DNA from: Gemmatimonadaceae bacterium
GTDB lineage: Bacteria; Gemmatimonadota; Gemmatimonadetes; Gemmatimonadales; Gemmatimonadaceae
Direction of reading: 5' to 3'
DNA: 64,000 nt
NCBI GenBank assembly: GCA_020852815.1
Contig: JADZAN010000002.1
Span: forward strand, 62,001-126,000
In this document: positions 5,133 to 61,171 of the stretch, in pieces
Position numbering within the stretch: position 1 is the stretch's first letter
Layout of the letters: each line of letters begins with the position of its first letter
Made by a program: the position numbers and the translations under genes
Notes under the pieces: generated by a model
The model's database searches: none
The model's input: the letters and a program-made list of their open reading frames with translations, nothing else
What the model was told of the DNA's origin: nothing

Positions 5133-5156
5133 GCTCTCATGCGCGCGAGGCGGGCT

Positions 5157-5387: not shown

Positions 5388-5443
5388 GATCGTCCTCCAG
5401 TCTCGGGTGGGCGACGCGCGTGGCGAAGCTGATGACTGGAGAA
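5388..5443 (-). promoter_or_regulatory. 5' leader hairpin covering the ribosome-binding site of the CsbD-like gene
   Basis: Read on the minus strand, CTCCAGTC (5441 to 5434) is followed after about 31 bases by GACTGGAG (5402 to 5395), which is its exact complement. The stem extends to ten pairs with one G-U. The second arm contains the whole Shine-Dalgarno sequence GGAGGA, five bases before ATG 5387. Folding would therefore block ribosome entry. The arrangement resembles an RNA thermometer or an accessory-factor-controlled leader; which one is inference. Confidence 0.5.
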
Positions 5444-5490
5444 CAGTGCTGCACTGCGCGCCACGCCGCAGTTGCCCCGGTGGACGATTT

Positions 5491-6183: not shown

Positions 6184-6224
6184 CGGGCGCGCGCGTCGCG
6201 TGACGAATGGGTGACGCCAAGCTA

Positions 6225-6248
6225 CTGTTGCGTACGCGTTGCCAACAG
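6225..6248. promoter_or_regulatory. Inverted repeat in the divergent promoter region before the NarL-type regulator
   Basis: CTGTTG (6225-6230) and CAACAG (6243-6248) form a perfect six-base inverted repeat with a 12-base centre in the 182-base gap between the divergent kinase-like gene and the response regulator. A dyad of this size could be an operator for the LuxR-type regulator next door. Evidence is position and symmetry only. Confidence 0.25.
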
Positions 6249-6365
6249 CAATATGTGCGTGGTGCGATGCCGTGCTGTCGATCACGGCAGCAGGCAGGAG
6301 GATGGTGACATGGTCTGCCGTTCGTTGGACCGAACCCGAGAGCCAGGTCAATACGAGGTGCGCCC

Positions 6366-6992
6366 ATGACCGATACCGAGATTCGTGTGCTGTTGGTGGA
6401 CGACCACACCGTGATGCGTGAGGGGCTCGCGGCGGTGCTGTCGGCACGAGGGCTCACCATCGTTGGCCAGGCCGGCGATGGCGCCACGGCGCTGGCGCTC
6501 TTTGATGAAGTGCGTCCCGACGTGTCGGTCGTCGACCTGCGCATGTCCCCCATGGATGGCGCGCAGCTCACGCAGGCCATGCGTGAGCGTGATCCGAACG
6601 CACGCGTGATCCTCCTCACGACGTACGACACCGACGAGGAGGTCTTTCGTGGGCTGCGCGCCGGTGCGGCGTCGTACCTGCTCAAGCACGTGGACGCGTC
6701 GACACTGGTGGAGACCATTCGCATCGTCCAGAGCGGGCGCCGCTCCATCGCCCCCGCCATTGCCGCGAAGCTCGCCGAGCATGTGGCGTCGGACGCACTC
6801 ACGCCGCGACAGGCCGAGGTGCTGCGTTGCCTGGCCGAGGGGAAGTCGAACCTCGAGATCGGGAACACGCTGTTCATCAGCGGTGGCACCGTGAAGGCGC
6901 ATGTGAAGGCGATCCTGGAGAAGCTCGATGCGCGCGATCGCACGCAGGCCATCGCGATCGCGATGAAACGCGGGCTCGTGCGCTCGAGCTAG
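6366..6992 (+). CDS. NarL/FixJ-type response regulator
   Basis: A 208-residue transcriptional regulator. Residues 1-120 are a receiver domain with acidic pocket D12-D13, phospho-acceptor D57 (VVDLRM), the conserved Thr in LLTTYD and Lys in YLLKH. Residues 143-205 form a LuxR-type helix-turn-helix, beginning LTPRQAEVLRCLAEG and ending GTVKAHVKAILEKL. A GAGGTG ribosome-binding site lies 6-11 bases before ATG 6366. No full histidine kinase is directly coupled; the divergent kinase-like gene and the two kinases within 5 kb are candidate partners. Confidence 0.93.
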   Translation: MTDTEIRVLLVDDHTVMREGLAAVLSARGLTIVGQAGDGATALALFDEVRPDVSVVDLRMSPMDGAQLTQAMRERDPNARVILLTTYDTDEEVFRGLRAGAASYLLKHVDASTLVETIRIVQSGRRSIAPAIAAKLAEHVASDALTPRQAEVLRCLAEGKSNLEIGNTLFISGGTVKAHVKAILEKLDARDRTQAIAIAMKRGLVRSS

Positions 6993-7230
6993 CTGGACGC
7001 GGGCGATGCGCGTGTGATCGGCGACACGCCGGGGCTGGGTGTGCCGTCTGGCCGCGAGGGATAGGGCCCACTCGTCCCTCGCGACAGCAGATCCCTACCG
7101 ATCCGGAGCGAGATGGAGACGCACCCCGCGGCGAATGGCGGCCGGAGGCGGACGCTGGCAGGTTGAGCGACACACGACGGGGCATCGCCTCGCCGTCCCC
7201 ACCACTCCTGCCCACACAGGGACTGCTGCC

Positions 7231-7977
7231 ATGATTCCATCAACCCGTGCACCACTGGCACTCGTGAGCGTGCTGCTTCTCGCGGCCTGCGGTCGCGACA
7301 TGCAGACGGAGAAGGAGGTCACCACCAGGACCTCCGCCGGCGACGCTGCCACATCCATTTCCGGCGACTCGGCCGACACGCGCAACCAGGCACTGGTGCG
7401 CGTCGTGAACGCCGTGCCGAACGTCATCGGCCTCACCGTGCGTTCCGACGAGGCGCACACGCTCCCCTCGGTCGACTACAAGCGTGTCTCGTCGTACCAA
7501 CCCATCGACCGCAACTGGGCCACGTTCCAGGTGTCCGGTTCGCCCAACGGTGCCTACGCGCCGATCGACGTCAATCGTGAGATGCTGACCGACGGGCATC
7601 GGTACACCATGGTCGTCATGCGCGAGTCCGAAGGTGGCGGCTTCTCGACGCGCATCTTCCGCGACGATATCGCCTCGGACTCGACGTCGGCCCACGTGCG
7701 GGTAATCCACGCCGCCAAGGGCGCGGGCGAGCTCGACATCGTGGCCCCAGGCGGCGAGACCATCTTCGACGACGTGGACTACACGTCCGAAGCCGGCTTC
7801 AAGTCGATGGCGCCATGGAAGGGGGCGCTGCAGGTGCGCGACGGCGACGGCAAGAGCACTCTGCTCACGCTTCCTTCGCTCGACCTCATGGCCGGCGGCT
7901 CGTACACGATCGTGATCACCCGTGATGCCGGCGGGAAGCTGGCTTCCTTCTGGTTCGAGGATCGCCAGCAGGCGTAG
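7231..7977 (+). CDS. DUF4397 lipoprotein
   Basis: A 248-residue lipoprotein. The N-terminus is a type II signal peptide with lipobox LLAAC (Cys20). A low-complexity Thr/Ser/Asp spacer follows, then two repeats of a beta-rich unit opening VRVVNAVPN and VRVIHAAKG, the mark of DUF4397, a family of extracytoplasmic Ig-like or beta-sandwich domains. It stands alone between a response regulator and a convergent two-component pair. The start at 7231 is set by the signal peptide. Function unknown; probably anchored to the outer membrane. Confidence 0.85.
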   Translation: MIPSTRAPLALVSVLLLAACGRDMQTEKEVTTRTSAGDAATSISGDSADTRNQALVRVVNAVPNVIGLTVRSDEAHTLPSVDYKRVSSYQPIDRNWATFQVSGSPNGAYAPIDVNREMLTDGHRYTMVVMRESEGGGFSTRIFRDDIASDSTSAHVRVIHAAKGAGELDIVAPGGETIFDDVDYTSEAGFKSMAPWKGALQVRDGDGKSTLLTLPSLDLMAGGSYTIVITRDAGGKLASFWFEDRQQA

Positions 7978-7989
7978 GCAAAACGCGCG

Positions 7990-8028
7990 GACGGCGCACA
8001 CGGGACATTGGTCGCGTGTGTCGCCGTC
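7990..8028. terminator. Bidirectional terminator-like hairpin between convergent genes
   Basis: GACGGCGCACACG (7990-8002) pairs with CGTGTG plus CGCCGTC (8015-8028), interrupted by a single bulged T. On the minus strand the hairpin is followed by CGCG and a TTTT run, so it looks like a terminator for the minus-strand receiver gene that ends at 8052. It also lies just after the DUF4397 gene. Confidence 0.55.
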
Positions 8029-8051
8029 GGCGGCGCGTGGTGAGGGGCCGA

Positions 8052-8486
8052 TCAGTCGTCGAGCTCGATCACGGCTTCGCCCCCGCGCACCCGATGCAGT
8101 GCGCCGATTAGTCGATCGGACGTGACCCCCTTCGAGATGAAGCCCCACGCCCCCCGGCTCATGTATCGGGAGATGAGCGCACCCTGCGGGTATCCGGTGA
8201 GCACCACGACGCGGCTGTCCGACTCCAGCGCCACGATGCGCTCGAGGAGGACCAACGCGTCTATGCCACCGGGGAGGTCCACATCCAGGAGCACGATCGC
8301 CGGCCGGTGGGCCGCCACGAGTGTCACCGCGTCGGCAAGGTCCTCCACCCGAATCAACTGGTCAAACCCCGGCTCCAGCGCCAACCGTCGCTCGAGCGCG
8401 TCCACCAGGAGCACGTTGTCGTCGATGCAGAGGACGCTGAAGCGGTCCAGGGGGAGCGAGTCGTTAGGCGGCGCCGCGTGGGGCAT
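8052..8486 (-). CDS. Single-domain response regulator
   Basis: A 144-residue receiver with no output domain. The acidic pair is in CIDDN (D22-D23), the phospho-acceptor is D68 in LLDVDLPGG, the Thr is in VVLTGYP and the Lys in FISKG. It begins 4 bases after the stop of the kinase at 8491-9609, so the two form an operon and presumably a phosphorelay pair. Without an effector domain it probably acts by protein contact or as a phosphate sink. The Pro-Asn codons at its N-terminus are part of a GTTAGGC heptamer copy (8463-8469). Confidence 0.88.
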   Translation of the reverse strand: MPHAAPPNDSLPLDRFSVLCIDDNVLLVDALERRLALEPGFDQLIRVEDLADAVTLVAAHRPAIVLLDVDLPGGIDALVLLERIVALESDSRVVVLTGYPQGALISRYMSRGAWGFISKGVTSDRLIGALHRVRGGEAVIELDD

Positions 8487-8490
8487 GGCG

Positions 8491-9609
8491 TCAGTTGACC
8501 AGGTCGGCCAGCGTCGAGAGCTGCGACATCGCGACCCACACCACGCCGCCCTCCGAGGCCGCCTCGGGCGTGGGGGCCGTCCCCAGTGCGATGATGCGCG
8601 GCTGTCGATGGCGCCGTTTCCGCAAGTCGTCGAGGACGCGCGCCACGCCCTCGCCATCGCAGATGATCGTACTCGGCGCACGAGGCTTCCGGCGCCGTCC
8701 CTCCACCGCCTCGGGTGTCCCCTCCCAGAGACGCACGCCGCGCTGCGCGAGGTGCAGACGCACCACAGTGCGATGCCGCGGATCGGCGAGCAGGAGCTGG
8801 ACCCGCTCTTCTTTCGTCACTCCGCGTGTGCGCGTGGTCTGTGCATCGGATGCCGTTCCCCGTTTGTGTACCGGCAGGAGGAGATGAAACGTCGCTCCGG
8901 GTTCTGCGTCGGCCACCGCCAGGCGCAGGTCGCCCCCGTAGCGTCGCAGCAGTGACCGCCCGGTGGAGAGCCCCATCCCCGTCGCATACTCGCGCGGGCG
9001 GGTGGTAAAGAAGGGCTCGAAGCATCGAAGCCGCACCTCCTCCTCCATCCCGATGCCATTGTCGGTGATCTCGAGGCGCACCGTGTCCTCGTCGAGGCGC
9101 ATCGCACGCACCCAGACCGCGGGTGCGTCGATCCCGCTGAGTGCGCGGCGTGCGTTCATCACCAGGCTCATCACCAGTTGTGCCACAACGCCCGGCGGGA
9201 CGGCAATCGACGGCAACCCGTCCGAGAACTCGGCAACGACGCGCGTCTCCGCCGTCAGGGCGTCGGCCACGAGCGGCGCCACGTCCGGCCACCATGCGGC
9301 AAGCGTGAAATGCTGCAGCTCGTCCGCCTGGTCGAACGGATCGGATCCCAGCAGCCTGAGCCCGGCGGCCAGGCGTTGCAGCTGCAGCACGCTGGAGCGG
9401 ATGCTCGCCACGTCGCGCCGAGCCGCGTCCGGAAGGTCGGGCGACGAGGCGAGCACGTCCAGGCGCAGCATCACTGGCATCAGGACGTTGCGCAGGTCAT
9501 GGCCCAACCCTGCCGCCAGAGTGCCGACCATGGCGACACGCTGCACGCGCTGCTGCTGCCGATCACCAGTCGTCCCAGTTCCTTCGTCGCGTTCCGGCGA
9601 GATCAGCAT
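8491..9609 (-). CDS. Soluble sensor histidine kinase with degenerate C-terminal receiver-like region
   Basis: A 372-residue protein with no membrane segments or sensor domain in front of the H-box. It carries GLGHDLRN (phospho-acceptor H37), the N-box MNARRA, G1 DNGIGM, the F-box FEPFFTTRP and G2 GMGLSTGRS, so the kinase core is complete. After about residue 250 comes a 120-residue alpha/beta extension that resembles a receiver (VQLLLADPRHRTVVRLHLAQRG...), but the usual phospho-Asp region reads STIICDGEG and is doubtful. It is the first gene of an operon with the single-domain receiver. Being cytoplasmic, it must sense an internal signal or be fed by another protein. Confidence 0.87.
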   Translation of the reverse strand: MLISPERDEGTGTTGDRQQQRVQRVAMVGTLAAGLGHDLRNVLMPVMLRLDVLASSPDLPDAARRDVASIRSSVLQLQRLAAGLRLLGSDPFDQADELQHFTLAAWWPDVAPLVADALTAETRVVAEFSDGLPSIAVPPGVVAQLVMSLVMNARRALSGIDAPAVWVRAMRLDEDTVRLEITDNGIGMEEEVRLRCFEPFFTTRPREYATGMGLSTGRSLLRRYGGDLRLAVADAEPGATFHLLLPVHKRGTASDAQTTRTRGVTKEERVQLLLADPRHRTVVRLHLAQRGVRLWEGTPEAVEGRRRKPRAPSTIICDGEGVARVLDDLRKRRHRQPRIIALGTAPTPEAASEGGVVWVAMSQLSTLADLVN

Positions 9610-9740
9610 CCGGTCGTCTCCCTGTGCGCACGCCGCTCATGGGCGTCACCTGCCATGCGGAACATGGCCGCTGAGCTCGCACATCGTGGTGGTGATGTCG
9701 TGACGCGCACGATTGGTGCCGCAACGACGGCCCTTCCCAT

Positions 9741-10940
9741 ATGCGTAACACACTCGTACGGTTCTTCCGTGAAGTGGAAAGCGCCCGTTCGCGGCTCCAC
9801 ACCGGCACGAGTTGCCCCGTGACCTCTCCTTCGCCGACGCGCAGCGTGCGACCACCCAACCTCGCCGATGCCGTGATCGACGTCGCCGATGCCATCCCCG
9901 GTTTGCTGTGGGTGACGACGGCGGCCGGCGCGCCAAGCTACTTCAACGCAGCGTGTCGTCAGTTCACGGGGCTGAGCGCGCGGCAGTTCGCCGAGGCGGG
10001 ATGGACGGCCCTGGTGCATCCCGACGATGTCGCGCGTCTCGATGACGGCTGGCGCCGCGCCACCATGGTACCGCTCGCCTTTGCAGTGGACGTCCGCTGT
10101 CGCCGGCACGACGGCGCCTACCGCTGGTGTGAGAAGCGCGCCCAGCCTGTCACCGATGCGCGCGGAACGCTGACGCACTGGGTTGGGATGCTCACCGACG
10201 TTCACGAGAAGAAGGTGCACGAAGCGGAGCTGCACCGGGTGGTGCGCCACCGTGACGAGTCGCTCGGCACGCTGGCCCACGACCTCCGCAACCCGCTTCA
10301 GGCGCTGCATCACGCGCAGAGTCTCGTGCGCTCGGAGCGCACACCGAATGACGTCCGCCTGCGCATGCTCGATTTGATGGAGCGGCAGATCCAGCTCCTG
10401 ACGCGCATTACCGACGGCTTCCTCGACGTCAACACGATGCGCTGGGACAGCGTCGTCCTCATCCCGTCGAACGTCTCGCTTGCCGCGCTGATCCAGGAGA
10501 CGGTGGATTCGGTGCGGTCTATCGTACAGCAACGCGCGCAGGAGCTGTCTGTCGAGGTCGTAGAACCGGAGAGCCTGCTCACGGTCGATGCCGGCCGCAT
10601 TGCGCAGGCGCTGGCCAACGTCCTCGAGATCGCGGCGACGCACAGTGACGACGGCGGGCACATCGCGCTGAGGGCACACGTCGAGAGTGGCATGGCGGTC
10701 TTCACCGTGACCGATTGCGGTCGTGGCATCGAGGCGGAGAGATTGGCGGAGATCGTCGAAGGGCTGGCGCGCTCGCCACGCGAGGTGGGCGCGACGAGCG
10801 AGGGGCTTGGGGCGGCGTTGACCGTGAGCCGCAACCTCGTGCATCTCCATGGCGGGACGATCGGGGCACACAGCGACGGTGCGGGGCGCGGGAGTTGCTT
10901 CGTCATCCGCGTGCCGCTCGTGATGGCGCCGCGGTCGTGA
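9741..10940 (+). CDS. PAS-domain histidine kinase
   Basis: A 399-residue soluble kinase. Residues about 41-155 are a PAS/PAC domain of the PAS_3 type (LVHPDDVARL, then RCRRHDGAYRWCEKRA and WVGMLTDVHEKK). The H-box is LAHDLRNPLQ (H180). The ATPase part has G1-like DCGRGI and G2-like EGLGAALTVSRNLVHLHGG, but the N-box reads LANVLEIAA with only one Asn, so catalysis may be reduced. It is divergent from the kinase at 8491-9609. Its TGA stop overlaps a possible start of the following receiver gene (ATG 10940), so the two are coupled. Confidence 0.88.
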   Translation: MRNTLVRFFREVESARSRLHTGTSCPVTSPSPTRSVRPPNLADAVIDVADAIPGLLWVTTAAGAPSYFNAACRQFTGLSARQFAEAGWTALVHPDDVARLDDGWRRATMVPLAFAVDVRCRRHDGAYRWCEKRAQPVTDARGTLTHWVGMLTDVHEKKVHEAELHRVVRHRDESLGTLAHDLRNPLQALHHAQSLVRSERTPNDVRLRMLDLMERQIQLLTRITDGFLDVNTMRWDSVVLIPSNVSLAALIQETVDSVRSIVQQRAQELSVEVVEPESLLTVDAGRIAQALANVLEIAATHSDDGGHIALRAHVESGMAVFTVTDCGRGIEAERLAEIVEGLARSPREVGATSEGLGAALTVSRNLVHLHGGTIGAHSDGAGRGSCFVIRVPLVMAPRS

Positions 10941-49176: not shown

Positions 49177-49506
49177 CGGCGCGGCACCCCCGGCTCGAAG
49201 GGTCTCAACGGCGGCGTCGTAACATCTCGATGAATCCCGAACGTGTTGATCGGGATTGTACCAGGGCGCACCCCTGCCAACTGAGAGCGACCCACGCGTC
49301 GCGCGCCCTCCGAAAGGGATGAGGGGCGCTGCGGGATTGTTCGACACGTCACGTCCCCGGGAGCGCAGGCCGCGCGCGAACGAACGCATTGGCGGCGTGA
49401 AGCGTAGGCTGTAAGTTCGACTACGATTTTGTATACACTGCCGCGAACAGCAGATGGATGCAGGCCGCGCGGCGCCGCCCTCCCACGCCACTCTCTGGAG
49501 TCGCAC
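49177..49506. promoter_or_regulatory. 330-base intergenic region before the SusC gene
   Basis: A perfect hairpin, AATCCCGA (49233-49240) with TCGGGATT (49250-49257), lies about 56 bases after the dehydrogenase stop; it lacks a U-run. TATACA (49432-49437) in an AT-rich patch may be a -10 box, with no convincing -35. TGGAG at 49495-49499 is the SusC gene's ribosome-binding site. Otherwise empty of genes. Confidence 0.45.
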
Positions 49507-52500
49507 ATGTCGTTCACGAAGGGGCACCACCAGGCCCCCTGGCTCGCGCGCATCGCCGGTACCCTCGCCGTCGTACTGACAGCGGGTCTCGCCAGTGTCG
49601 CGCAGGCGCAAACGGGGACTCTCGCCGGCCGTGTCACCGACGCGGCCGCTGACGCGCCGCTCCCGGGGGTCACCCTGCAGGTCGAAGGGACTCGCTTCGG
49701 GGCGGGGACGGCCAACGACGGTCGCTATCGCATCACGGGGCTGCAACCCGGCAGCTACGTGATCATCGCGCGGCGCCTGGGCTACAACCCACAGCGCCAA
49801 ACGGTGACGGTGAGCGCGGGGAGCGAAGCCACGGCAAACTTCCGGCTGCAGGCGAGCGCCATCGCGCTCGACCAGGTCGTCGTGACGGGGACGGCCGGGG
49901 CGCAAGAGAAGCGCTCCATCGGCAACGCGGTCACCACGATCTCGGCCAGTGAGGAGCTGGCCAAGTCGGCGGCACCCAACCTTGGCGCGCTGCTCAACGC
50001 CCGCGCCACCGGGGTGACGATCCTCCCGCGTTCCGGGCGACTGGGCGCCGGGCCGTCGATCCAGATTCGCGGCCGCGCCTCGCTCTCGCTCGAGAACTCA
50101 CCGCTCCTGTACATCGACGGCGTGCGCGTGAACAACTCGACGGCCACTGGGCCGGTGGGTGTCTCCGGCGGCCTGGGCGGCCAGGGGTCGCAGTTTGGCG
50201 GGCGCCTCAACGACCTCAATCCCGAGGACATCGAGAGCATCGAGATCATCAAGGGGCCAGCCGCCGGCACCATCTATGGAACGGAAGCGGCCAACGGCGT
50301 CATCCAGGTCATCACCAAGCGCGGCGCGGCCAACAGTGCCCCGCAGGTGGCGATGGGGGTCGAGGTCGGATCGCTCTCGTTCTACGACGCGGTCAACCGC
50401 ATCAACACCAACTACGCGAAGAACGCCTCCGGCACCGTGATCCCGTGGAACGGGTTGCAGCAGGAGATCGATTCCGGGCGCGGCTTCTACAAGACCGGGC
50501 AGACGCGCCGCTACAACGGCTCCGTCTCGGGCGGACGCGACCTGTTCCGCTACTATGTGGGCGGGTCGTACCAGAACGACCTGGGCATCGAGCCCAACAA
50601 CACGCTGCAGCAGATGTCGTTCCGTGCCAATGTCAGCGCGGCGGTGCGCCCCAGCACCGATGTCACGGCGAGTCTGGGGAGCGTGATCCTGCGCAACCGC
50701 CTGGGCGCCGACTACGGTGCCTCGCCGCTCCTTGGCGCGCAGGTGGGGCACTCGCTCCTCTTTCCCGCCACGCGCGGTTTCTTCGCGGTCTCTCCCGAGA
50801 TCCCGCAGCGGCTGTATGACAACAAGAGCAACGTGAACCGCTTCACGGGGAGCGTGCAGGTCACGAACCGCCCGACCAGCTGGTTCACGCACCGCGCCAT
50901 CCTGGGGGTCGACCAGAGCGCCGAGGACGCGCGCGCCCTCGAGCGCTTTGCCCCGCCCGATCTGGCCAAGGTCATGTCGCCCGCGGCGGCCGGTGGCCGC
51001 GTCGGGCAAACGATTCGCAACAACACGCTGTTCACCGCGGAGTACGGCGGTACCGCCAAGGCAAAGCTGGGGAGCGCGATCGTCTCCACGTCGTCGGTGG
51101 GCGGGCAGTTCTACCGCACGGAACTCAACACCTCGTTCCTGGGCGGCTTCGGCTTTGCCGGTCCGGGGCTGGAGCTGGTGTCGGCCGCTGCCACGCAGGT
51201 GGCCGCCACGCAGACGCAGGTGCTCAACACCACCATCGGCGCCTATGGCGAGCAGCAGTTCGCGTGGCGCGACCGCCTGTACGTCACCGCGGCGCTGCGC
51301 GTGGACAACAACAGCGCCTTCGGTGCCGACTTCAAGTGGGTCACGTATCCGAAGGTGAGCGCCTCGTGGGTAGTGAACGAGGAAGAGTTCTGGACGCTCG
51401 ACAACACGATCCAGACGTTCCGCCTGCGCGTCGCCTACGGCGCCTCCGGACGGCAACCGAACGCCTTCGCCGCGCTGCGCACCTTTACCCCCGTCACCGG
51501 CCCCGGCGGCGGCACCGCGGTGACCCCCGGGTCGCTCGGCAACCCGGACCTCAAGCCGGAAGTCGGAAAGGAGCTCGAACTCGGTTTCGAGGCCGGGCTG
51601 TTCAATCGCCTGTCGATCGACTTCACGTACTTCACCAAGTCGACGAAGGACGTGATCGTGAGCCAGGCGGTGGCGCCATCAGCCGGCTTCCCCGGGCAGC
51701 AGTTCCGCAACCTGGGTGAAGTGAGCAACTCGGGCATCGAGATCTCCTCCACGCTCCAGGCCCTACAGCGGCGCAACGTCTCGTGGGAAGTGACCGGTAA
51801 GGTCTCGACCAACAAGGACAGGATCGAGGACCTCGGCGGGCTGCCGTCGGTCATTGCCACCGCGGGGGCGGCCAACATCGTGGGCTACCCGATTGGCGGA
51901 ATCTTCGTGCGGCGCATCGCGTCGGCCGATCGTGACGCCACCGGCGCGGCCACGAACATCCTCTGCCAGGCCGCCAACGGCGGTACCCCGATCGCCTGCG
52001 CCACGGCTCCCTTCCTGTACATCGGGACGCCGACGCCCAAGCTCACCGGCGCCGTGTCCAACACGGTTACCATCGGGCGCAACCTGCGGCTGTACGCGCT
52101 CATGGATTTCCGCAACGGCAACCGGCTGTACAACGCCGTCGAGCTGCTGCGCTGCGGCGCGCAGTTGGGCGTCGCGCTATGCGACGTGGCGTACAACCCG
52201 TCGAAGTACGACATCAAGTACGTCGCGCAGGCGCGCGGACAGGCGGTGAGCCTCGGGACGACGGAGACGTACTTCCAGGATGCGTCGTTCGTGAAGCTGC
52301 GCGAAGTGTCGGCCACGTACACGCTCCCCGAACGCTGGTTCCGCAAGCGTGCGTCGGTTACGCTCGCCGGGCGCGAGCTCAAGACCTGGACCGACTACCG
52401 CGGCATCGATCCCGAATCAAACGTGAACAACGCGGCCACGACGGCGCAGACCATCGACCAGGCGTCCACGCCGAACCTCATGCGTTTCATCGCGACCTTC

Positions 52501-52515
52501 AACATCTCGTGGTAA
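49507..52515 (+). CDS. SusC/RagA-like TonB-dependent outer-membrane receptor
   Basis: A 1002-residue outer-membrane protein. After a signal peptide (ends in AQAQ), TLAGRVTDAAADAPLPGVTLQVEGT..YRITGLQPGSY is the carboxypeptidase-regulatory-like domain, then VVVTGTAGAQEKRSIGNAVTTI the plug start. SPLLYIDGVRVNN and RLNDLNPEDIESIEIIKGPAAGTIYGTEAANGVI are the SusC plug motifs. The remaining 700 residues form the barrel, ending NISW with a final aromatic residue. It imports nutrients, energised by TonB, with the SusD lid encoded 3 bases downstream. Substrate unknown; the serine hydrolase behind it hints at peptides or esters. Confidence 0.95.
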   Translation: MSFTKGHHQAPWLARIAGTLAVVLTAGLASVAQAQTGTLAGRVTDAAADAPLPGVTLQVEGTRFGAGTANDGRYRITGLQPGSYVIIARRLGYNPQRQTVTVSAGSEATANFRLQASAIALDQVVVTGTAGAQEKRSIGNAVTTISASEELAKSAAPNLGALLNARATGVTILPRSGRLGAGPSIQIRGRASLSLENSPLLYIDGVRVNNSTATGPVGVSGGLGGQGSQFGGRLNDLNPEDIESIEIIKGPAAGTIYGTEAANGVIQVITKRGAANSAPQVAMGVEVGSLSFYDAVNRINTNYAKNASGTVIPWNGLQQEIDSGRGFYKTGQTRRYNGSVSGGRDLFRYYVGGSYQNDLGIEPNNTLQQMSFRANVSAAVRPSTDVTASLGSVILRNRLGADYGASPLLGAQVGHSLLFPATRGFFAVSPEIPQRLYDNKSNVNRFTGSVQVTNRPTSWFTHRAILGVDQSAEDARALERFAPPDLAKVMSPAAAGGRVGQTIRNNTLFTAEYGGTAKAKLGSAIVSTSSVGGQFYRTELNTSFLGGFGFAGPGLELVSAAATQVAATQTQVLNTTIGAYGEQQFAWRDRLYVTAALRVDNNSAFGADFKWVTYPKVSASWVVNEEEFWTLDNTIQTFRLRVAYGASGRQPNAFAALRTFTPVTGPGGGTAVTPGSLGNPDLKPEVGKELELGFEAGLFNRLSIDFTYFTKSTKDVIVSQAVAPSAGFPGQQFRNLGEVSNSGIEISSTLQALQRRNVSWEVTGKVSTNKDRIEDLGGLPSVIATAGAANIVGYPIGGIFVRRIASADRDATGAATNILCQAANGGTPIACATAPFLYIGTPTPKLTGAVSNTVTIGRNLRLYALMDFRNGNRLYNAVELLRCGAQLGVALCDVAYNPSKYDIKYVAQARGQAVSLGTTETYFQDASFVKLREVSATYTLPERWFRKRASVTLAGRELKTWTDYRGIDPESNVNNAATTAQTIDQASTPNLMRFIATFNISW

Positions 52516-52517
52516 CC

Positions 52518-53876
52518 ATGCGACTCTCCAACTCCATCGTGCGCCGGTCGCAGCGGTCGGCGCTCCGTGCGCGGGCGGCGTCGCAACGGGCGCTGTTCGA
52601 GCGTTCCGCTGTTGCCGCGCTGCTCGTGGTGAGCGGTGCCTGCACCGAGGTGACCGCGCTCAAGCAGGACAACCCCGGCCAGCTGTCGGCGGCGACGATC
52701 TACATCCCGTCCAACGCGCAGTTGCTGACCAACGGCGCCATCGCCGATTTCGAGTGCGCCTTCTCTCGCTTCATCGTCGGTTCGGGGCTGTTCACCGACG
52801 AGCTGTCCAACGCGATCGGTTCCGTGTCGAACTACAACTACGATCGCCGCACGGTGCAGACGATCGAGACGTACGGCACGGGAACGTGTGGGTCCAACCA
52901 GCAGCCGCCGATCTATACCACACTGTCGGTGGCGCGCGCGTCGGCCGATACCGTCGCCGCCAAGCTCCGCGGATGGACAGACGCTCAGATGCCGACGGGC
53001 GTGGTGCGCACCAAGCTGATAGGCCAGGCCGACGCGTACGCTGGCTACAGCATCCTGCTCATGGGCGAGTCGATGTGCACGGCGGCGATCAACCTTGGGC
53101 CCGAACTGTCGCCGGCGCAGCTCTTTGACCAGGCCAAGTCCCGCTTCGATTCCGCGGTGGTCGCGGCTACCGCGGCCAGCGACCAGGCAACGCTGAACTT
53201 CGCGTTGCTGGGGCGTGCCCGCACGTTGCTGAACCAGAAGTCGGCGGCCTCGATCGCCGCGGCGGCGGTTGATGCCGCACGCATTCCCGCCGGCTTCACC
53301 TATTCGATCTCGACCGACGGCGTGAACGTGCGACGGCAGAACTTCTCGTACCTGTCGATCAACCAGAACTTCTGGAGCACGGTCGACGCCACATTCCGTG
53401 GTCTCACCATCGGCGACGCACCCGATCCGCGCGTGGCGGTAACCAACACCGGGCGTGCCGGGACGGCGCAGGGGACCACGATCTGGACGCCCGACAAGTA
53501 CCCGGCGCTCGCGACGAACATGCCGATCGCGCGCTGGGCGGAGGCGCAGTTCATCATCGCCGAGGCGAGAGCGGCGACCGGCGACCTGACGGGGGCGGCC
53601 ACGGCGATCAATGCGGTGCGTGCCACACGTTCCGGGCTGCCGACGTACTCGGCGTCGGGGCAGACGGCGGCGCAGGTGGTGAGCCAGATCGTGGAGGAGC
53701 GCCGGCGCGAGCTGTTCCTCGAGGGGCACCGCATGGGCGACATTCGCCGGTTAGGGCTCCCGTGGCTCCCGGCGGCGGGGACGCCGTACCCGGGTGGCGG
53801 CGGCACGTACGGCGACCAGACCTGCTTCCCGTTGCCCGACGCCGAGCGCATCAACAACCCGAACCTCGGGAGCTGA
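52518..53876 (+). CDS. SusD/RagB-like lipoprotein
   Basis: A 452-residue surface lipoprotein with signal lipobox VSGAC (Cys42). The fold is TPR-like: SLGQLSAATIYIPSNA-type start, LARARTLLNQ helices, then RWAEAQFIIAEARAATGDLTGAATAINAVRATRSGLP and QIVEERRRELFLEGHRMGDIRRLGLPW, the C-terminal SusD signature. It covers the SusC pore and binds the nutrient. The second gene of the pair. RLGL is encoded with TTA-GGG, the one TTA codon whose context differs by one base from the heptamer. Confidence 0.93.
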   Translation: MRLSNSIVRRSQRSALRARAASQRALFERSAVAALLVVSGACTEVTALKQDNPGQLSAATIYIPSNAQLLTNGAIADFECAFSRFIVGSGLFTDELSNAIGSVSNYNYDRRTVQTIETYGTGTCGSNQQPPIYTTLSVARASADTVAAKLRGWTDAQMPTGVVRTKLIGQADAYAGYSILLMGESMCTAAINLGPELSPAQLFDQAKSRFDSAVVAATAASDQATLNFALLGRARTLLNQKSAASIAAAAVDAARIPAGFTYSISTDGVNVRRQNFSYLSINQNFWSTVDATFRGLTIGDAPDPRVAVTNTGRAGTAQGTTIWTPDKYPALATNMPIARWAEAQFIIAEARAATGDLTGAATAINAVRATRSGLPTYSASGQTAAQVVSQIVEERRRELFLEGHRMGDIRRLGLPWLPAAGTPYPGGGGTYGDQTCFPLPDAERINNPNLGS

Positions 53877-53879
53877 TCG

Positions 53880-55484
53880 GTGATTCAACAATCCGCGACG
53901 TCGATGCACCGCCCCGTGAATTGCGGCTGGCGGTGCACCGCATGGCGCGCCGGCGTGCAGGCTGCCGTGCAGGGCGCGGCGTTGCTGCTGGCGTCCGCGG
54001 CGCTCACCCCGGCCCTCGCGCAGCAACGCGAGCCGTTCCCGGGGCTCGACGCCTACATCACGGCAGCGATCAAGCAGTGGAAGGTCCCCGGGCTCGGAAT
54101 GGCGATCGTCCGCAACGACTCGGTGATCTACGCGCGCGGTTACGGCGTGCGCGAGGTGGGACGTCCGGAGGCGGTGGACGACAAGACCGTCTTCGCCATC
54201 GGCTCGTCGTCCAAGGCGTTCACCTCGGCGGCGGTCGCCATGCTGGTGGACGAGAAGAAGGTCGTGCTCGATGCGTCGCCGGGAACGTACTTTCCCGGCT
54301 TCCAGCTGTACGATCCGTATGCGTCACGCGAGCTCACGGTGCGCGACCTGCTGAGCCATCGCAGCGGGCTCGCGCGCGGTGAGCTGGCGTGGTACGGCTC
54401 GGGCTTCGACCGTGACGAGATCGTGCGGCGTGTACGCTACCTCAAGCCCTCGTGGTCGTTCCGGGCGCAGTTCGGCTACCAGAACATCATGTACATCACC
54501 GCCGGACAGGTGGTGGCAAAGGTGTCGGGGCGTTCGTGGGACGACTTCATTCGCGAGCGCATCTTCACGCCGTTGCACATGACCGCGTCCTCCTCCTCGA
54601 TCAAGGGGCTGGAGTCGGTGACCGACCTCGCGCAGCCGCACGCCGAGTTGAACGACACGGTGCGCAAGGTCCCGTGGCGCAACATCGACAACGCGGGACC
54701 GGCCGGCTCGATCAACTCGAACGCGGCCGACATGGCGCAGTGGCTGCGGCTGCAACTGGGGCGCGGGAAGTACGAGGGGAAGCAGCTCATTTCCTCGCGC
54801 ATGACCGACGAGATGCACCAGGCGCAGATGGTGATTCGCGTCGACTCGGCGGCGCGCGCGAACAACCCGGACACGCACTTGCAGGCCTACGGGATGGGGT
54901 GGTTCCTCGAGGACTACCGGGGGCGGTTCGTGGTGCACCATGGTGGCAACGTGGACGGGTTCACCGCGTTGGTGGCGATGATGCCGGAGGAGAAGTTCGG
55001 CGTGGTCTTCCTCACCAACATGAACGGAACCGGGCTGCCCAACGCGCTGATGCACAAGGTCTTCGACCTGCAGCTCAAGGCACCGGCGAAGGACTGGAGC
55101 GGCGAGGCTCTGAAGCGGCTCGAGGCGCAGCGTGCCCGCGCCCGTCAGATGCAAGCGCGCCAGGAATCGCAGCGCGTGGCCAACACGCGCCCCACGCTCC
55201 CGCTGTCGGCCTATGCGGGGACGTACGTCGACTCGCTGTACGGCGACGTGGTGGTGAAGGAGGAGAATGGCAAGCTGCAGCTCACCTTTGGCCCCAACTG
55301 GCGCGGGGAGATGGAGCACTACCAGTACGACGCCTTCCGCGTGAAGTTCGACACGCCGGTCCTCCCGGTGGTCCCGGCGGTCTTCCAGATCAACGGGGCG
55401 GGGAAGGTGGAGTCGGTGCAGCTCGACATGGCCGGGGTGGCCGAGTTCCGCAAGAAGCCGGACGGGGCGCCGATGAACCGTTAG
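53880..55484 (+). CDS. Exported beta-lactamase-family serine hydrolase
   Basis: A 534-residue periplasmic enzyme of family S12. The signal peptide ends at LTPALAQ. The catalytic S-x-x-K is S109-S-S-K112 in AIGSSSKAF; the Y-x-N is in FGYQNIMY; the HGG triad is VVHHGGNVDG. A C-terminal DUF3471-like domain follows (about 430-534, AYAGTYVDSLYGDVVVKEENGKL). Such proteins cleave D-amino-acid peptides, esters or amides. GTG 53880 is only 3 bases past the SusD stop; ATG 53904 is the alternative. Part of the SusCD operon by spacing. The TAG stop belongs to a GTTAGGC heptamer. Confidence 0.9.
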   Translation: MIQQSATSMHRPVNCGWRCTAWRAGVQAAVQGAALLLASAALTPALAQQREPFPGLDAYITAAIKQWKVPGLGMAIVRNDSVIYARGYGVREVGRPEAVDDKTVFAIGSSSKAFTSAAVAMLVDEKKVVLDASPGTYFPGFQLYDPYASRELTVRDLLSHRSGLARGELAWYGSGFDRDEIVRRVRYLKPSWSFRAQFGYQNIMYITAGQVVAKVSGRSWDDFIRERIFTPLHMTASSSSIKGLESVTDLAQPHAELNDTVRKVPWRNIDNAGPAGSINSNAADMAQWLRLQLGRGKYEGKQLISSRMTDEMHQAQMVIRVDSAARANNPDTHLQAYGMGWFLEDYRGRFVVHHGGNVDGFTALVAMMPEEKFGVVFLTNMNGTGLPNALMHKVFDLQLKAPAKDWSGEALKRLEAQRARARQMQARQESQRVANTRPTLPLSAYAGTYVDSLYGDVVVKEENGKLQLTFGPNWRGEMEHYQYDAFRVKFDTPVLPVVPAVFQINGAGKVESVQLDMAGVAEFRKKPDGAPMNR

Positions 55485-55589: not shown

Positions 55590-56819
55590 TTACTTCGGGA
55601 ACTGCACGAGCTGGAAGCCCAGGGGCATCTCGTGCACCCGTTGCTGGGCGGCGCCCACCTTGCACCCGCTGAACGTCGGGGCGCAACGACCCAGGAGCTC
55701 GAACCGATCGTGCTGGTACGGCACCCCCTCTGAGCCGAGCGGCGAGGGCGAGTCGCTGATGTGGAAGTGCAGGTGTGGTTCGGTCGAGTTGCCGGAGTTG
55801 CCCACGAGCCCGACCACCTGCCCGCGCTTGACCCGGTCGCCAAGCTTCACCTTGAGCGAGCCTGGGCGCAGGTGCGCGTAGAAGGCGTAGTGTCCGCCGC
55901 CGATATCTATGATGACGTGGTTCCCGCCCACCGTCTCGAGGGTGATGGGAACGGCGCGCGAGTCGATGCCGGGGACGTTCTCGGGAATGCCGTCCTTGAT
56001 GGCGACCACCTTGCCATCGGCCACGGCCAGGGCATCGAGCCCCTCGGCGTAGTAGCTCTCATTCTTCGCCGCGTCGCCCGCGTGCGTCCTGTATGCCGTG
56101 TCGACCTTGACGTAGTCGATTGCGAAGCGCTGGGCGATGGTCGGGGCGTCGGCAGCTGCAATCAGGGCGCGGCGGTGGCCGGCCATGGCGTCGGGGCCGT
56201 TCGCGGCGAGCCAGGGGCCGCCACGCAGCGGCGGGCCGACGATGGCGACCGCCGAGGAGACGCCCGTGCTGGCGCGATCGAGCGTATCGGTGACGACCGT
56301 ATCGCCGCCGGTGGTGCGCGACAGGATGGCGCGGTGCCAGATACGCGTCGGCGTCGCGCCCGAGAGCGGGACCCACAGGAATGCCACCGCGCGCAGTCCG
56401 CCACCCAGCGTGGCGCGCGTCATCAGCGGGGGGGCGGGGGTCACGCCGGGGCGCGCCAGCGTGCGGGCGAGCGCCGTGTCCTGCAGTGTGATGAGGGTGC
56501 GAGCGTCGCCTTCCGTCATGACGTCGAGCCGTCGCAGGGTGACGGGGGCGCCGCCGAAGTTCGTCAGGTGCAACTCGTAGACGAGGACGCGAGCGCCGTC
56601 GGCGGTGAGGACGGTGGGGGGCTTGGGGATGCGGAACTCGAGCTGCGGGGGGAGTCGCGCGCCCTGGGCCTTTGCCGTGTCGGCGCCGGTGATAAGGAGT
56701 GCCGCGAGTGCGTGTGCGAGCGCGAGCGCGCGTGCGGGCGCGCGTGCGGGCGCGCGATGGGCGCCACGCGCACGCGAGGGGGTGGCGCTCCGCTGGGGGA
56801 GGCGCAGAAGGCGTTGCAT
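55590..56819 (-). CDS. Exported M23 peptidase (LytM domain)
   Basis: A 409-residue secreted protein. A long Ala/Arg/Pro signal region (with APARAPARALALAHALAAL repeats) is followed by a beta-rich N-terminal domain (about 65-190) and a C-terminal LytM domain with VGGNHVIIDIGGGHYAFYAHL (metal ligands His and Asp) and NSTEPHLHFHI. M23 enzymes cleave peptidoglycan cross-bridges or act as cofactors. Start ATG 56819. It follows the ATP-grasp-SET gene on the same strand by 236 bases, with a repeat array between. Confidence 0.88.
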   Translation of the reverse strand: MQRLLRLPQRSATPSRARGAHRAPARAPARALALAHALAALLITGADTAKAQGARLPPQLEFRIPKPPTVLTADGARVLVYELHLTNFGGAPVTLRRLDVMTEGDARTLITLQDTALARTLARPGVTPAPPLMTRATLGGGLRAVAFLWVPLSGATPTRIWHRAILSRTTGGDTVVTDTLDRASTGVSSAVAIVGPPLRGGPWLAANGPDAMAGHRRALIAAADAPTIAQRFAIDYVKVDTAYRTHAGDAAKNESYYAEGLDALAVADGKVVAIKDGIPENVPGIDSRAVPITLETVGGNHVIIDIGGGHYAFYAHLRPGSLKVKLGDRVKRGQVVGLVGNSGNSTEPHLHFHISDSPSPLGSEGVPYQHDRFELLGRCAPTFSGCKVGAAQQRVHEMPLGFQLVQFPK

Positions 56820-56928
56820 GAGACGGAGGAGGGCGGGAGAAGGGCGAGGTACGGGCACGTGGAGTTTCGCGCGCGATTGCCCGGGCGGCAATGTTGCGGG
56901 ACCAGCCGATACGCCGCCGCTTGTCCGC

Positions 56929-57058
56929 GCGCGACTATCTGCGCCCCCGCGCGCGCGTGACAGCGTGTGACAGCGTGTGACAGCGCGCGACTTTCTGCGC
57001 CCGCGCGCGCGCGTGACAGCGTGTGAGAGCGTGTGTCTACATGCGCCCGCGCGCGCTA
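56929..57058. repeat. Degenerate GCGCCCGCGCGCGCG/GTGACAGCGTGT repeats between the M23 and ATP-grasp-SET genes
   Basis: Two composite units of about 55 bases (start 56931 and 56987) share CTTTCTGCGCCC.. or CTATCTGCGCCC.., a CGCG tract, then two or three GTGACAGCGT copies. A third, shortened unit (57030-57058) reaches into the stop codon (57056-57058) of the ATP-grasp-SET gene. Confidence 0.75.
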
Positions 57059-58492
57059 CGCCGAAGCGCGGCGGCGACGCTCGCGCAGCGTGACCGAGTT
57101 CCCGGCGGTCCCGCTCACCACGCCGCGGCAGTTGGGCGAGCCACAGCGACATTCGAAGGTCGCGCTCGTCTCGCTCAGCATCGTCGCGAAGTCGAGCGTG
57201 AGTTCCTCGCCAGGTGCAATATCGCGCCGCGCGACGACGTCCAGCCCCACGAACTCGGTGTTGGGGTCGCACGAGTGGTTCTGCGGCGCCCACTCCGAGG
57301 GGTTGGAGTCCCAGAGGATGAAGACTTCGTCGGAAATGGGATACGCGTAGTGCTTGAAGCTCTCCAGCTCGCTCGCGGCCCAGGTGCGCTCCACGTGCGA
57401 ACGCGTGACGATGCGTTGCGCCCGCTCCTCGCCGCGGAAGACGGTCTCCCCTGCGGCGATGGCGCGCGTGGCGTGGATGCCGTAGCCCGAGATCGGGCTC
57501 CCCTCGATGCGGAACGGCCGCACCTTGCGCTTGTGCCTGGCCAGCGCCTCGGCCACCACGAGCTGCGCGAAGCCCGCCTGCCCGATCCCGTCGTGCTTGA
57601 GGATGTAGTCGGCCGACCCCTCGTAGCCGTCGGCGTAGAAGATCGAGCAGGAGAAGTTGACCTCGAGGAAGTAGAGGTCGCCGTTCGCATCGAGGCGGAA
57701 GTCCATGCGTGCGTAGCCCACCGCATTGAAGCCGTTGAACACGGCGATGGCCGCCTCGTGCAGCTGCTTCACCAGCGCCTCGTCCGTCACCGGAACGTTG
57801 GCGTCGGGGTGCAGCTCGCTCGTCTTGTGCGCGTAGGTCTTGAAGCGTGGCTCGCTATCGAAGACCCATTCCACCGGCCGAAAGGCGCGCACCTTCCCAT
57901 GCGCGGTCGGGTCGCCGATCACCAGCACGGTCAGCTCGCGACCGTCGATGTACTGCTCGACCAGCAGCTCCGGGTACTCGGGGAGCGTATCCACAACCTT
58001 GGCGCGCAGCTCGGCGGTGTTGGTCACGCGCGACCGCACGTCGACGCCGAGCGAGTCGCCGGCGTGCGCCGGCTTCACGAAGAGGGGGAAGCGAAGCGTG
58101 CGCGCCACCTGTTCCACCTGGTCCACGCTCGTGACCAGCACGTGCGGCGACGTCTTTACCCCGGAGATATGGGCGATGTACTTCATCAGGACCTTGGGCG
58201 GGTCGTACAGCTCCGCGTTGGGGCCTGTGTACGGGAGTTGGAGGCGGTCGAGCGAGTGAACGACGTCGATCGAGGGGATGTCCCAGTGGAGATACCCCTC
58301 GATGAGGTTGAAGTAGAGGTCGTATCCCTCCCGCGCCAGCTCACGCAGCTGACGGAAGGTGGTGAGCTTGTTGATCTGGACGTGGTCGACGTCGTGCGGG
58401 GCCAGGATCTGCGTCAGGTCGCGCTTGGGGTCGTAGTGCCCGTAGTCGACGTCCGACTTCGAGTAGTCGGGTTGGAGGACGCAGATCTTCAT
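57056..58492 (-). CDS. ATP-grasp (D-Ala-D-Ala-ligase-like) domain fused to SET domain
   Basis: A 478-residue protein. Residues 1-318 are an ATP-grasp ligase of the D-Ala-D-Ala-ligase type: FPLFVKPAHAGDSLGVD (nucleotide-binding Lys140), LVEQYIDGRELTVLVIG and YFLEVNFSCSIF (metal-binding E-x-N). Residues about 328-440 are a SET domain: GSPISGYGIHATRAI (SAM), NHSCDPNTEFVG and APGEELTLDFA, then post-SET cysteines C448, C450 and C455 in CRCGSPNCRG. The last aromatic of the ELTxDY motif is Phe (F435), so lysine methylation is unproven. Start ATG 58492. The fusion suggests ligation of an amino acid to a peptide combined with N-methylation or protein-lysine methylation. Confidence 0.85.
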   Translation of the reverse strand: MKICVLQPDYSKSDVDYGHYDPKRDLTQILAPHDVDHVQINKLTTFRQLRELAREGYDLYFNLIEGYLHWDIPSIDVVHSLDRLQLPYTGPNAELYDPPKVLMKYIAHISGVKTSPHVLVTSVDQVEQVARTLRFPLFVKPAHAGDSLGVDVRSRVTNTAELRAKVVDTLPEYPELLVEQYIDGRELTVLVIGDPTAHGKVRAFRPVEWVFDSEPRFKTYAHKTSELHPDANVPVTDEALVKQLHEAAIAVFNGFNAVGYARMDFRLDANGDLYFLEVNFSCSIFYADGYEGSADYILKHDGIGQAGFAQLVVAEALARHKRKVRPFRIEGSPISGYGIHATRAIAAGETVFRGEERAQRIVTRSHVERTWAASELESFKHYAYPISDEVFILWDSNPSEWAPQNHSCDPNTEFVGLDVVARRDIAPGEELTLDFATMLSETSATFECRCGSPNCRGVVSGTAGNSVTLRERRRRASA

Positions 58493-58593
58493 GGGACGCG
58501 ACAACGAGTCTGGGGGAGCGTGATCCTGCGGGGTGCCGCGCGATGCCGCGTGTGCGGCCAGCGCTGGTGCCGCACGGGCGGGCGCGGCGTGGC

Positions 58594-59685
58594 TTACGAG
58601 GCGAGGCGGACCGCCTGCTCGGCGTGGCGCACGGCCTCGAGGAGGATCGCGTTCACCACGGCGGCGTACGACGTCCCGGCAAAGCGGATCACGGCGCCGA
58701 TCGAGGTGACGTTCTCGTCCTCCGACAGCCCGCACTGTGCGTTCACCTCGAGGACGAAGAGGTCGCCGGTGCGTGCGTCCATGCGCAGGTCCACGCGCCC
58801 ATAGCCGGTACCGCCCACGGCTTCGTACGCGGCCCAGCTGACCTCGTGAATGCGCTCGGCGAGCGAGGCCGGCGCTGGCGCGTACTGCCACAGCTCCTCA
58901 CCGTGTCCAACCGGCGATTCGTGCTCGTAGAACTCCCACAGCCGATCGAACGACAGGAAGCGTTCGTGCGGCGGGAGCTTGCGATTGAAGACCCGCTCGA
59001 CCGCGGGATAGACGGTGGCGTGGTCGTAGTCGCGTGCGCTTCCGACGATGAACGTCGTGAACTCGGCGCCGTCAATGAAGCGCTCGACGAAGAGCCCACC
59101 GGCTTCCAGCGACCAGCCGTGCACGCCGCGGCGCAGGGCGGTGAGCTGCTCGTTGAGTGCGCGCGGGGTGGCGACGACGTTCTTGCAGCCGATGCCCAGC
59201 GAGCCGGCGGAGATGGCGGGCTTGAGGATGAGCGGGGCGGGGATGCGACGAAAGAGCCCGGGGACGCGCTGGGCGCCGGGAGCGATTACTTCCCATGGCG
59301 ACGTGGGGACGCAGGCGGCCTCGAAGGCCGACTTCATCGTGATCTTCGACGTCGTGATGTCGTAGAAGTGCTCGTCGGCGCCGGTGTAGGGGAGCGCGCT
59401 CTCGTCGAGGTAGCGCACCACGGAGAGGCCGGGGGCGCCGTTGAGTTCATCGCCGTCGCACAGGTTGAAGACGACCGGGCGATAGCCATCGGATTCGGCG
59501 CGGATCGAGTCGATGACGTCGCGGAACGTCGCCATCGTGACCGGCTGCCAGCGATACGGGAGCGACAGCTCGGCGAAGGCGCGTTCGAACTCCGCCTGGC
59601 TCGCGCTGAAGTCGTAGTAGTACCGGATGGTGGGGTCGTCGCTTTCGACCTGGGGGACCAGGACCCAGACGAGTAGCGGGGACAC
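58594..59685 (-). CDS. ATP-grasp ligase (D-Ala-D-Ala-ligase-like)
   Basis: A protein of about 363 residues. Near the N-terminus is VVFNLCDGDELNG, like the DVVFNLLHG of D-Ala-D-Ala ligase; PLILKPAISAGSLGIGCKN is the ATP-binding Lys region, and FVLEVNAQCGLSED is the E-x-N metal site. It lacks the usual SET partner of the neighbour but shares its layout, so both are a tandem pair on one strand with 101 bases between. The start is unclear: GTG 59685 is my choice; TTG 59736 would add a basic extension. It could ligate an amino acid or short peptide for a modified natural product or cell-wall precursor. True Ddl function is unlikely because of the pair. Confidence 0.8.
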   Translation of the reverse strand: MSPLLVWVLVPQVESDDPTIRYYYDFSASQAEFERAFAELSLPYRWQPVTMATFRDVIDSIRAESDGYRPVVFNLCDGDELNGAPGLSVVRYLDESALPYTGADEHFYDITTSKITMKSAFEAACVPTSPWEVIAPGAQRVPGLFRRIPAPLILKPAISAGSLGIGCKNVVATPRALNEQLTALRRGVHGWSLEAGGLFVERFIDGAEFTTFIVGSARDYDHATVYPAVERVFNRKLPPHERFLSFDRLWEFYEHESPVGHGEELWQYAPAPASLAERIHEVSWAAYEAVGGTGYGRVDLRMDARTGDLFVLEVNAQCGLSEDENVTSIGAVIRFAGTSYAAVVNAILLEAVRHAEQAVRLAS

Positions 59686-59935: not shown

Positions 59936-61171
59936 TCAACGCGTCACGGGCTGCAGCTTCACCAACCCGTTGAGCATGTCGGAGGCGTAGAGCGCATTGC
60001 CCGTGAATTGCACCCCCCAGACAAAGACCGGCTTCCCCGTTTCAAACACACCGGTGGCGACGAGCCGACCGGCCTTCTTCATGTCGCAACGTCCATCGGA
60101 TGCCTTCTGGTCCAGGGTGCAGACGCCTGGATTGCCACTCACGTCGAGGACGTGCACACCGGCGTTGTAGTACGCGGCATAGAGGAGATTGCGGCTCTCA
60201 TCCACCGAGAAGTTGTGCGTCCCCGCCCCGTCCACCGAGTAGAACGCCACCTCGCGCGGTGCCGCGAGGCTCTCGAGGTCGACGACGTGAATGTCCCCCG
60301 AAGATTGGTCGAACAGGCGCGCGGCCCCTTCTTCCCCGATGATGGCAAACCGCTTGGTGCCCGTGGCCGGGTCGTGCAGCCACCAGATGTTGTGCACCTC
60401 GCCGTTCACCGTGAGGAGGCGCGTGATCTCGACCGGGTTCTGGAGCGTCCCTCCCTTGCCGCCCCCACCGATGTCCCACATCACCATGCCGTCGTTCCAG
60501 AGGGCGGTGAAGAGGATCCCGTCGCGCACGTAGACATCGTGAATGAAGGGGCTCCCCATGTCGCGGAACATCACCTCGCGCGGATTGGACGGGTCGCTGA
60601 GGTCGACGATCATCAACCGCGACGGATGCGTCCCCGCGTTGTTGACCGAGAGGAAGGCGTAGAGCGTGCCGTTGACGCGCTGCACCTCGGCGGTGTGCAC
60701 CCCACGCTGGATGCGGGGGGAGGTGAAGCGCGACAGGGGGCGCGGCGCGGTGGGGTTGGTGAGGTCGTAGATGTCCAGCGAACCAGGGGCAAGCTCGGTG
60801 GGGAAGATGAGGAGCTTGCCGTCGTCGCTCACCTGCACGTCGCCGGTGGTGCGAATCGGGACACCGGTCACCAGCGGCGGGACGATGACCGAGTCGACCA
60901 GGATCGGTGTCGCCCCCCGCACGTCCCAGATGAAGACCGCATTGCCCGCGGTGCGCTGACAGCCGCTGCACCACCACGTGCTGGTGTAGGCGTAGTTGCC
61001 ATGCACCCACACTTCCGCCGTGTAGCGGTTGTCAATCACCCCGCGCCCGCTCACGGTCAACACCGCCGGCAGCTTCGGTTGCGGCGTGGGCGACACGTTG
61101 CCCGTTGCGTCGTCTGCGCCTCCACAGGCGGCCAGCAGCAAGGCGATGAGGGTGAGGGTGGGGCGGGGCAT
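59936..61171 (-). CDS. LVIVD-repeat lipoprotein (beta-propeller)
   Basis: A 411-residue exported protein with lipobox LLAAC (Cys16). It has about six blades with the LVIVD-type pattern: VFIWDVRGATPILVDSV, SLDIYDLTNPTAPRPLSRF, RLMIVDLSDPSNPREVMF, IHVVDLESLAAPREVAFY, VHVLDVSGNPG. Two Cys in WWCSGCQ could bind a metal or form a disulphide. Such proteins are surface or periplasmic scaffolds or enzymes of unknown substrate. Single gene. A seven-base microsatellite lies next to the start codon and no normal ribosome-binding site is seen. Confidence 0.87.
   Translation of the reverse strand: MPRPTLTLIALLLAACGGADDATGNVSPTPQPKLPAVLTVSGRGVIDNRYTAEVWVHGNYAYTSTWWCSGCQRTAGNAVFIWDVRGATPILVDSVIVPPLVTGVPIRTTGDVQVSDDGKLLIFPTELAPGSLDIYDLTNPTAPRPLSRFTSPRIQRGVHTAEVQRVNGTLYAFLSVNNAGTHPSRLMIVDLSDPSNPREVMFRDMGSPFIHDVYVRDGILFTALWNDGMVMWDIGGGGKGGTLQNPVEITRLLTVNGEVHNIWWLHDPATGTKRFAIIGEEGAARLFDQSSGDIHVVDLESLAAPREVAFYSVDGAGTHNFSVDESRNLLYAAYYNAGVHVLDVSGNPGVCTLDQKASDGRCDMKKAGRLVATGVFETGKPVFVWGVQFTGNALYASDMLNGLVKLQPVTR

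Follow-up and report, generated by a model that had tools for sequence, protein, structure and literature searches.

Introduction

The Ddl family of ATP-grasp enzymes joins free amino acids, RimK or tubulin-tyrosine-ligase-type enzymes add amino acids to protein tails, and MysC and MysD are ATP-grasp-type ligases that attach amino acids to a small molecule. Most SET domains methylate lysines of proteins.

The SET-type enzyme BurB, from the bur cluster (PDB 9l4t, 9l4v), S-methylates free methionine and works with BurI, BurD and BurE towards DMSP (PMC12542666). It resembles the proteins reported here in being a small SET and post-SET protein; the difference is that here the SET domain is fused to, or lies beside, ATP-grasp ligases. 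In the assembly of cystargolide and belactosin, an ATP-grasp ligase (CysD, BelU) and a SAM methyltransferase (CysG) build a short peptide without the ribosome (PMC11427300). The logic of the pathway that we propose below appears similar to that of such ATP-grasp-assembled peptides, although the kind of methyltransferase is another one: the cited part of PMC11427300 describes CysG as making a C1-methyl ester within a larger cluster that has lactone-forming enzymes, and it describes no ligase/SET fusion.

Two further systems deserve comparison. MysD is presented in the cited parts of PMC11983340 and PMC10614408 as the ATP-grasp ligase of mycosporine-like amino acid synthesis. MysC/MysD and the proposed pathway would share the ATP-grasp ligation of amino acids but differ in their methyltransferase, and we noticed no cyclohexenone-forming genes beside the ligase/fusion pair. 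In eukaryotes, a single protein, TTLL12, contains SET-like and TTL-like (ATP-grasp-type) domains, according to the cited part of PMC3520985. The likeness is one of description: TTLL12 is TTL-type, and the same part of that paper reports that it does not catalyse histone methylation. In the open literature, too narrow a scope for a claim of priority, we found no description of a bacterial ATP-grasp/SET fusion, and TTLL12 was the only such combination.

Gene order and domains in the window

The window is the whole stretch of DNA that was analysed, 64 kb in length. Its minus strand carries, in order of transcription, an LVIVD-repeat protein, ATP-grasp ligase 1, the ATP-grasp/SET fusion and an M23 peptidase. 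The features are as follows.

59936-61171, minus strand: LVIVD-repeat protein, upstream of ligase 1
58594..59685, minus strand: ATP-grasp ligase 1, Ddl fold, 363 aa (Pfam Dala_Dala_lig_C, 1.3e-10)
57056..58492, minus strand: ATP-grasp ligase 2 with a fused SET domain, 478 aa (Pfam Dala_Dala_lig_C, residues 124-279, 6.7e-24; SET, residues 336-435, 2.2e-10)
57518..58492, minus strand: ATP-grasp half of the fusion, residues 1-325 (match to Staphylococcus aureus Ddl, 7u9k)
57110..57514, minus strand: SET and post-SET half of the fusion, residues 327-461 (Pfam SET; best PDB hits of the profile BurB, 1.1e-13, and KMT2A, 2.4e-12)
57269..57280, minus strand: NHSC motif, fusion residues 405-408 (alignment of relatives)
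57188..57190, minus strand: Phe435, which replaces the ELTxDY tyrosine in the fusion (alignment of relatives)
57128..57151, minus strand: post-SET cysteines C448, C450 and C455 of the fusion (alignment of relatives)
55590..56819, minus strand: M23 peptidase, a neighbour judged to be outside the system (Pfam Peptidase_M23, 3.3e-17)

The first-pass annotation had described two tandem Ddl-like ATP-grasp genes, the second with an in-frame SET domain and post-SET cysteines. Both parts of this description hold, with both genes on one strand, Dala_Dala_lig_C in each and a complete SET domain whose Pfam match exceeds the curated cut-off. The ligase 1 stop codon (58594-58596) and the fusion ATG at 58492 are separated by 101 bases in the window, and an in-frame TTG at 59736 is a possible alternative start for ligase 1. 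The window's own locus contains neither a stand-alone SET gene nor a transporter. Elsewhere in the window (49429-55484, plus strand), a SusC-like receptor, judged by the look of its sequence, a SusD-like protein and a serine beta-lactamase-family protein lie in a row as an ordinary uptake-type locus.

Distribution and phylogeny of the fusion

Within the window's family, the fusion was found in 35 of 179 genomes (E <= 1e-60). In a sample of the phylum, 41 of 395 genomes matched the fusion query at E <= 1e-30, one of which, G370, matches the ATP-grasp part only. Among named genomes, tblastn confirmed that at least 529 candidate stretches are related to the query, though not that each is a two-domain fusion. 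The best 80 of these (at least 529) were kept; they come mostly from Chitinophagaceae and other Bacteroidota, but also from Nostoc and Brasilonema, and they include records titled Acidobacteria, Verrucomicrobia and Deltaproteobacteria. Among the matches listed, fusions occur at 47-71% identity in Bacteroidota (mostly Chitinophagaceae), cyanobacteria and others. Since several phyla share this fusion, its origin by chance is excluded. The search for other carriers and their conserved neighbours, which the first-pass annotation had suggested, thus shows that this is not a one-genome case, and neighbours recur as well.

In a tree of 113 fusions, the group that includes the window copy is confined to the window's family and order (support 94). 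Ten fusions of the same phylum (L097-L106) form a divergent clade that is outlying in this tree. Its members belong to other families, are 34-41% identical, and have no adjoining ligase 1, small SET gene or transporter; nor did we find a separate ligase 1 in their genomes (E <= 1e-20). The partner is thus not always needed, and the divergent fusions possibly act on their own or have another product. The fusions of two records, titled as Streptomyces griseus (L141) and Sphingomonadales (L180) MAGs, nest inside Bacteroidota, and these records may be misnamed or contaminated. Genome G064 has an intact copy on contig C160 and a second, partial copy (C179:3055-4119) that is 58% identical to the window's and has an internal TAG; the latter is possibly a decaying duplicate.

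Neighbouring genes

Our neighbour survey covered 119 distinct loci, with 33 main-clade loci of the window's phylum and 74 loci elsewhere, the latter from the best matches listed. Ligase 1 is the most constant neighbour. It immediately precedes the fusion in 30 of the 33 main-clade loci and near it in 70 of the 74 loci outside the phylum (among the matches listed); over all loci outside the divergent clade, it adjoins the fusion in 100 of 107 (again among the matches listed). In 27 of the 29 pairs measured within the window's phylum, the two genes overlap by four bases.

A small stand-alone SET gene lies near the pair in 46 of the 74 loci outside the phylum (among the matches listed), compared with 2 of 33 in the main clade. 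The membrane subunit of an ABC exporter (ABC_membrane_3, PF13748), mostly a transmembrane domain without an ATPase domain, occurs in 26/74 loci outside the phylum (among the matches listed) and 9/33 within it. A MatE transporter gene was found in 8/33 main-clade loci and also in a Nostoc locus; several of the loci with a MATE gene are closely related to one another. Cultured carriers include Lacibacter cauensis CGMCC 1.7271, whose locus L112 unites all four genes of the set, and Sediminibacterium goheungense DSM 28323 (L163). That MATE and ABC genes are common and the MATE loci are partly close kin counts against the pathway that we propose below.

An unfused form of the same system exists in L108, a locus of G370. 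Here, a single strand (5017-10152) encodes a GNAT protein, a Ddl-like ATP-grasp enzyme, a BurB-like SET protein, a complete ABC exporter and ligase 1, and an unfused relative of ligase 2 lies beside this run on the opposite strand. Ligase 1 is thus present in G370 as a separate gene.

Within the window's family, BurB-like stand-alone SET genes occur in 18 of 35 genomes with the fusion and in 12 of 144 others (1e-12, kinship ignored). This excess supports a link to the fusion weakly, because these genes sit apart from the ligases and because kinship was ignored. Their settings elsewhere in the family's genomes are without ligases; most of the solo genes in L203, L205-L208 and L212 adjoin a shared set of neighbours (clusters e1-e4).

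The first-pass annotation had recognised no precursor peptide gene, and this proved to be the case across loci: small ORFs recur just among closely related loci. We rejected a RiPP on the grounds that no small ORF is conserved past such relatives. No conserved substrate protein was found among the neighbours in the surveyed loci. Anti-phage defence was also rejected, as PADLOC gave no match for ligase 1, the fusion, the partner SET protein or the ABC subunit.

The ATP-grasp domains

Both ligases have the complete Ddl fold and the ATP-grasp motifs. The AlphaFold2 model of the fusion (pLDDT 90.6, pTM 0.84) matches S. aureus Ddl 7u9k over residues 1-324 (Z 30.5, rmsd 2.5 over 298 residues), and that of ligase 1 (pLDDT 92.8) matches the D-Ala:D-Lac ligase 1ehi (Z 31.8, rmsd 2.8 over 318 residues). 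The conserved lysine, arginine, aspartate, glutamate and asparagine of the ATP/Mg site are present by structure match and alignment; E186, K223, R262, D264 and N279 are invariant in 119 fusions, and position 277 is Glu or Asp.

Besides the attached SET domain, the ligases differ from Ddl in two respects. They score 94.5 and 46.7 bits with the curated Ddl model TIGR01205, far below its cut-off of 245.65, and we rejected a housekeeping Ddl identity for this reason. In addition, the GSS of the Ddl substrate site aligns to GDS and its KY to KT in the profile of the fused family, so that the Ddl serine is replaced by Asp and the tyrosine by Thr. Because of these low scores and replacements, the substrate is likely to be other than that of Ddl.

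These data also bear on a cell-wall function, in which a pair of variant D-Ala-D-X ligases and the M23 peptidase would act on peptidoglycan. The Ddl fold and the position of the M23 gene, downstream on the same strand, are in keeping with such a function. Nevertheless, we consider it highly improbable, given a Ddl score of 94.5 against the cut-off, the loss of the substrate-site serine and tyrosine in the aligned family profile, and an M23 gene that is linked to the fusion in no other genome. The gene is present in 23 of the 179 family genomes and in 4 of the 35 that have the fusion; in the other three genomes with both, it lies on a different contig. The suggestion that the peptidase could be a substrate or processing partner is therefore rejected, as it is a neighbour in the window locus only.

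The SET domains

The fusion has the SET profile, the NHxC and ELTxDY motifs (the Tyr being Phe in the window's clade) and the cysteine-rich post-SET region. Among fusion relatives, H406 and C408 are invariant where aligned, N405 is kept in 115 of 117, and the post-SET CxC...C (C448, C450, C455) is invariant in all 115 aligned relatives. The substitution of Phe for the ELTxDY tyrosine, which the first-pass annotation had reported for the window copy, is real: the position is Phe in 6/115 aligned relatives and Tyr in 109. The six are the window copy and L062-L066, which form one tree group (support 92).

It was suggested that this change could leave the SET half altered or inactive. If so, the SET half of the window copy would be a structural remnant and ligation alone would matter there. 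F435 itself is in line with this, as is a dN/dS that is higher in the SET half (0.27) than in the ligase half (0.155) between the genus's two species. However, the SET and post-SET regions retain every other residue examined. The dN/dS of the SET half is 0.27, 0.22 and 0.06 in three Phe-clade pairs, well below 1, and it equals that of the ligase half in the latter two; in this clade, purifying selection acts on the SET half. Furthermore, the Y124F variant of BurB, which we take as the equivalent of F435 because of the alignment between our profile and BurB, keeps over 60% of its activity (PMC12542666). Together with the restriction of the change to one clade, these observations weaken the case for inactivity without disproving it, and we regard a remnant as rather improbable.

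The stand-alone partner SET and the fused SET differ in their resemblance to BurB. For the stand-alone protein, BurB is the nearest solved relative over most of its length: against PDB sequences, its profile matches BurB at 5.7e-22 over positions 15-148, compared with 2.9e-10 for the best histone methyltransferase. BurB is also the top-scoring solved relative of the fused SET (1.1e-13, 54.5 bits), but over 59 positions in the C-terminal half, whereas KMT2A matches over 129 positions, nearly the full length (2.4e-12, 50.2 bits). Thus, in this comparison, made by sequence because the PDB matches of the whole-fusion model are Ddl structures, the fused SET resembles BurB and histone methyltransferases to a similar degree, and a protein may be its substrate.

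This resemblance favours the main rival explanation, a protein-modifying system in which the ATP-grasp enzymes would add amino acids to a protein tail and the SET halves would methylate lysines of the same protein. SET domains mostly act on protein lysines, the fused profile matches KMT2A nearly as well as BurB, and the joining of ATP-grasp-like and SET-like domains has a eukaryotic precedent in TTLL12, as described in the cited part of PMC3520985. Yet both ligases are Ddl-type rather than RimK-type by sequence and fold, the loci have no conserved substrate protein or precursor, the recurrent partner SET is BurB-like and transporters recur. For these reasons, we consider protein modification unlikely and favour a small-molecule product of the conserved Ddl-fold pair.

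Discussion

We propose that the ligases and SET domains form a pathway independent of the ribosome, in which amino acids are ligated and methylated to give a small, exported peptide-like metabolite, and we put the probability of this reading at roughly 0.52. It is supported by the conservation of the fusion and its partner across phyla, by the retention of the catalytic motifs, and by the recurrence of a second SET and an exporter. The first-pass annotation had pointed to a pathway that ligates and methylates a peptide or protein tail. Ligation and methylation gain support from these observations, but a protein tail does not, as there is no conserved substrate protein or precursor and the recurring genes encode an amino-acid-type SET and exporters. 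Against our reading stand the window's own locus, which has no stand-alone SET or transporter, the divergent clade, whose fusions have no ligase 1 beside them, the ABC subunits, most of which have no ATPase domain, and the likeness of the fused SET to histone methyltransferases.

The first part of our model addresses ligation. Using ATP, the Ddl-fold ATP-grasp enzymes would activate carboxylates and link amino-acid-like units, two or three in number, through amide bonds. In the second part, SET domains would use SAM to add methyl groups either to a building block or to the product as it grows. One of these domains is the SET fused to ligase 2, and many genomes have a BurB-like stand-alone SET as another; in the fusion, a single polypeptide probably both ligates and methylates one intermediate. 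Last, the product may be exported where an ABC or MATE-type transporter belongs to the locus. We observed the gene order, its conservation across phyla, the intact motifs, the fold of the ligase halves and BurB as the nearest solved relative of the partner SET; we infer the amino-acid or peptide substrates, the order of steps, the activity of both halves and export.

At slightly less than even odds, the pathway may be a widespread route in which SET domains serve as amino-acid or peptide methyltransferases within or beside ATP-grasp assembly and an exported, methylated oligopeptide is made in Gemmatimonadota, Bacteroidota and cyanobacteria. Almost all that is known of SET enzymes concerns the methylation of protein lysines, and BurB, acting on a free amino acid, is a recent exception. 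If our proposal is true, SET chemistry would extend to peptide biosynthesis, through a gene set, conserved in several phyla, in which SET domains are coupled to ATP-grasp enzymes that make peptide bonds. Many environmental bacteria would then produce an unknown metabolite, and named cultured carriers of these genes exist.
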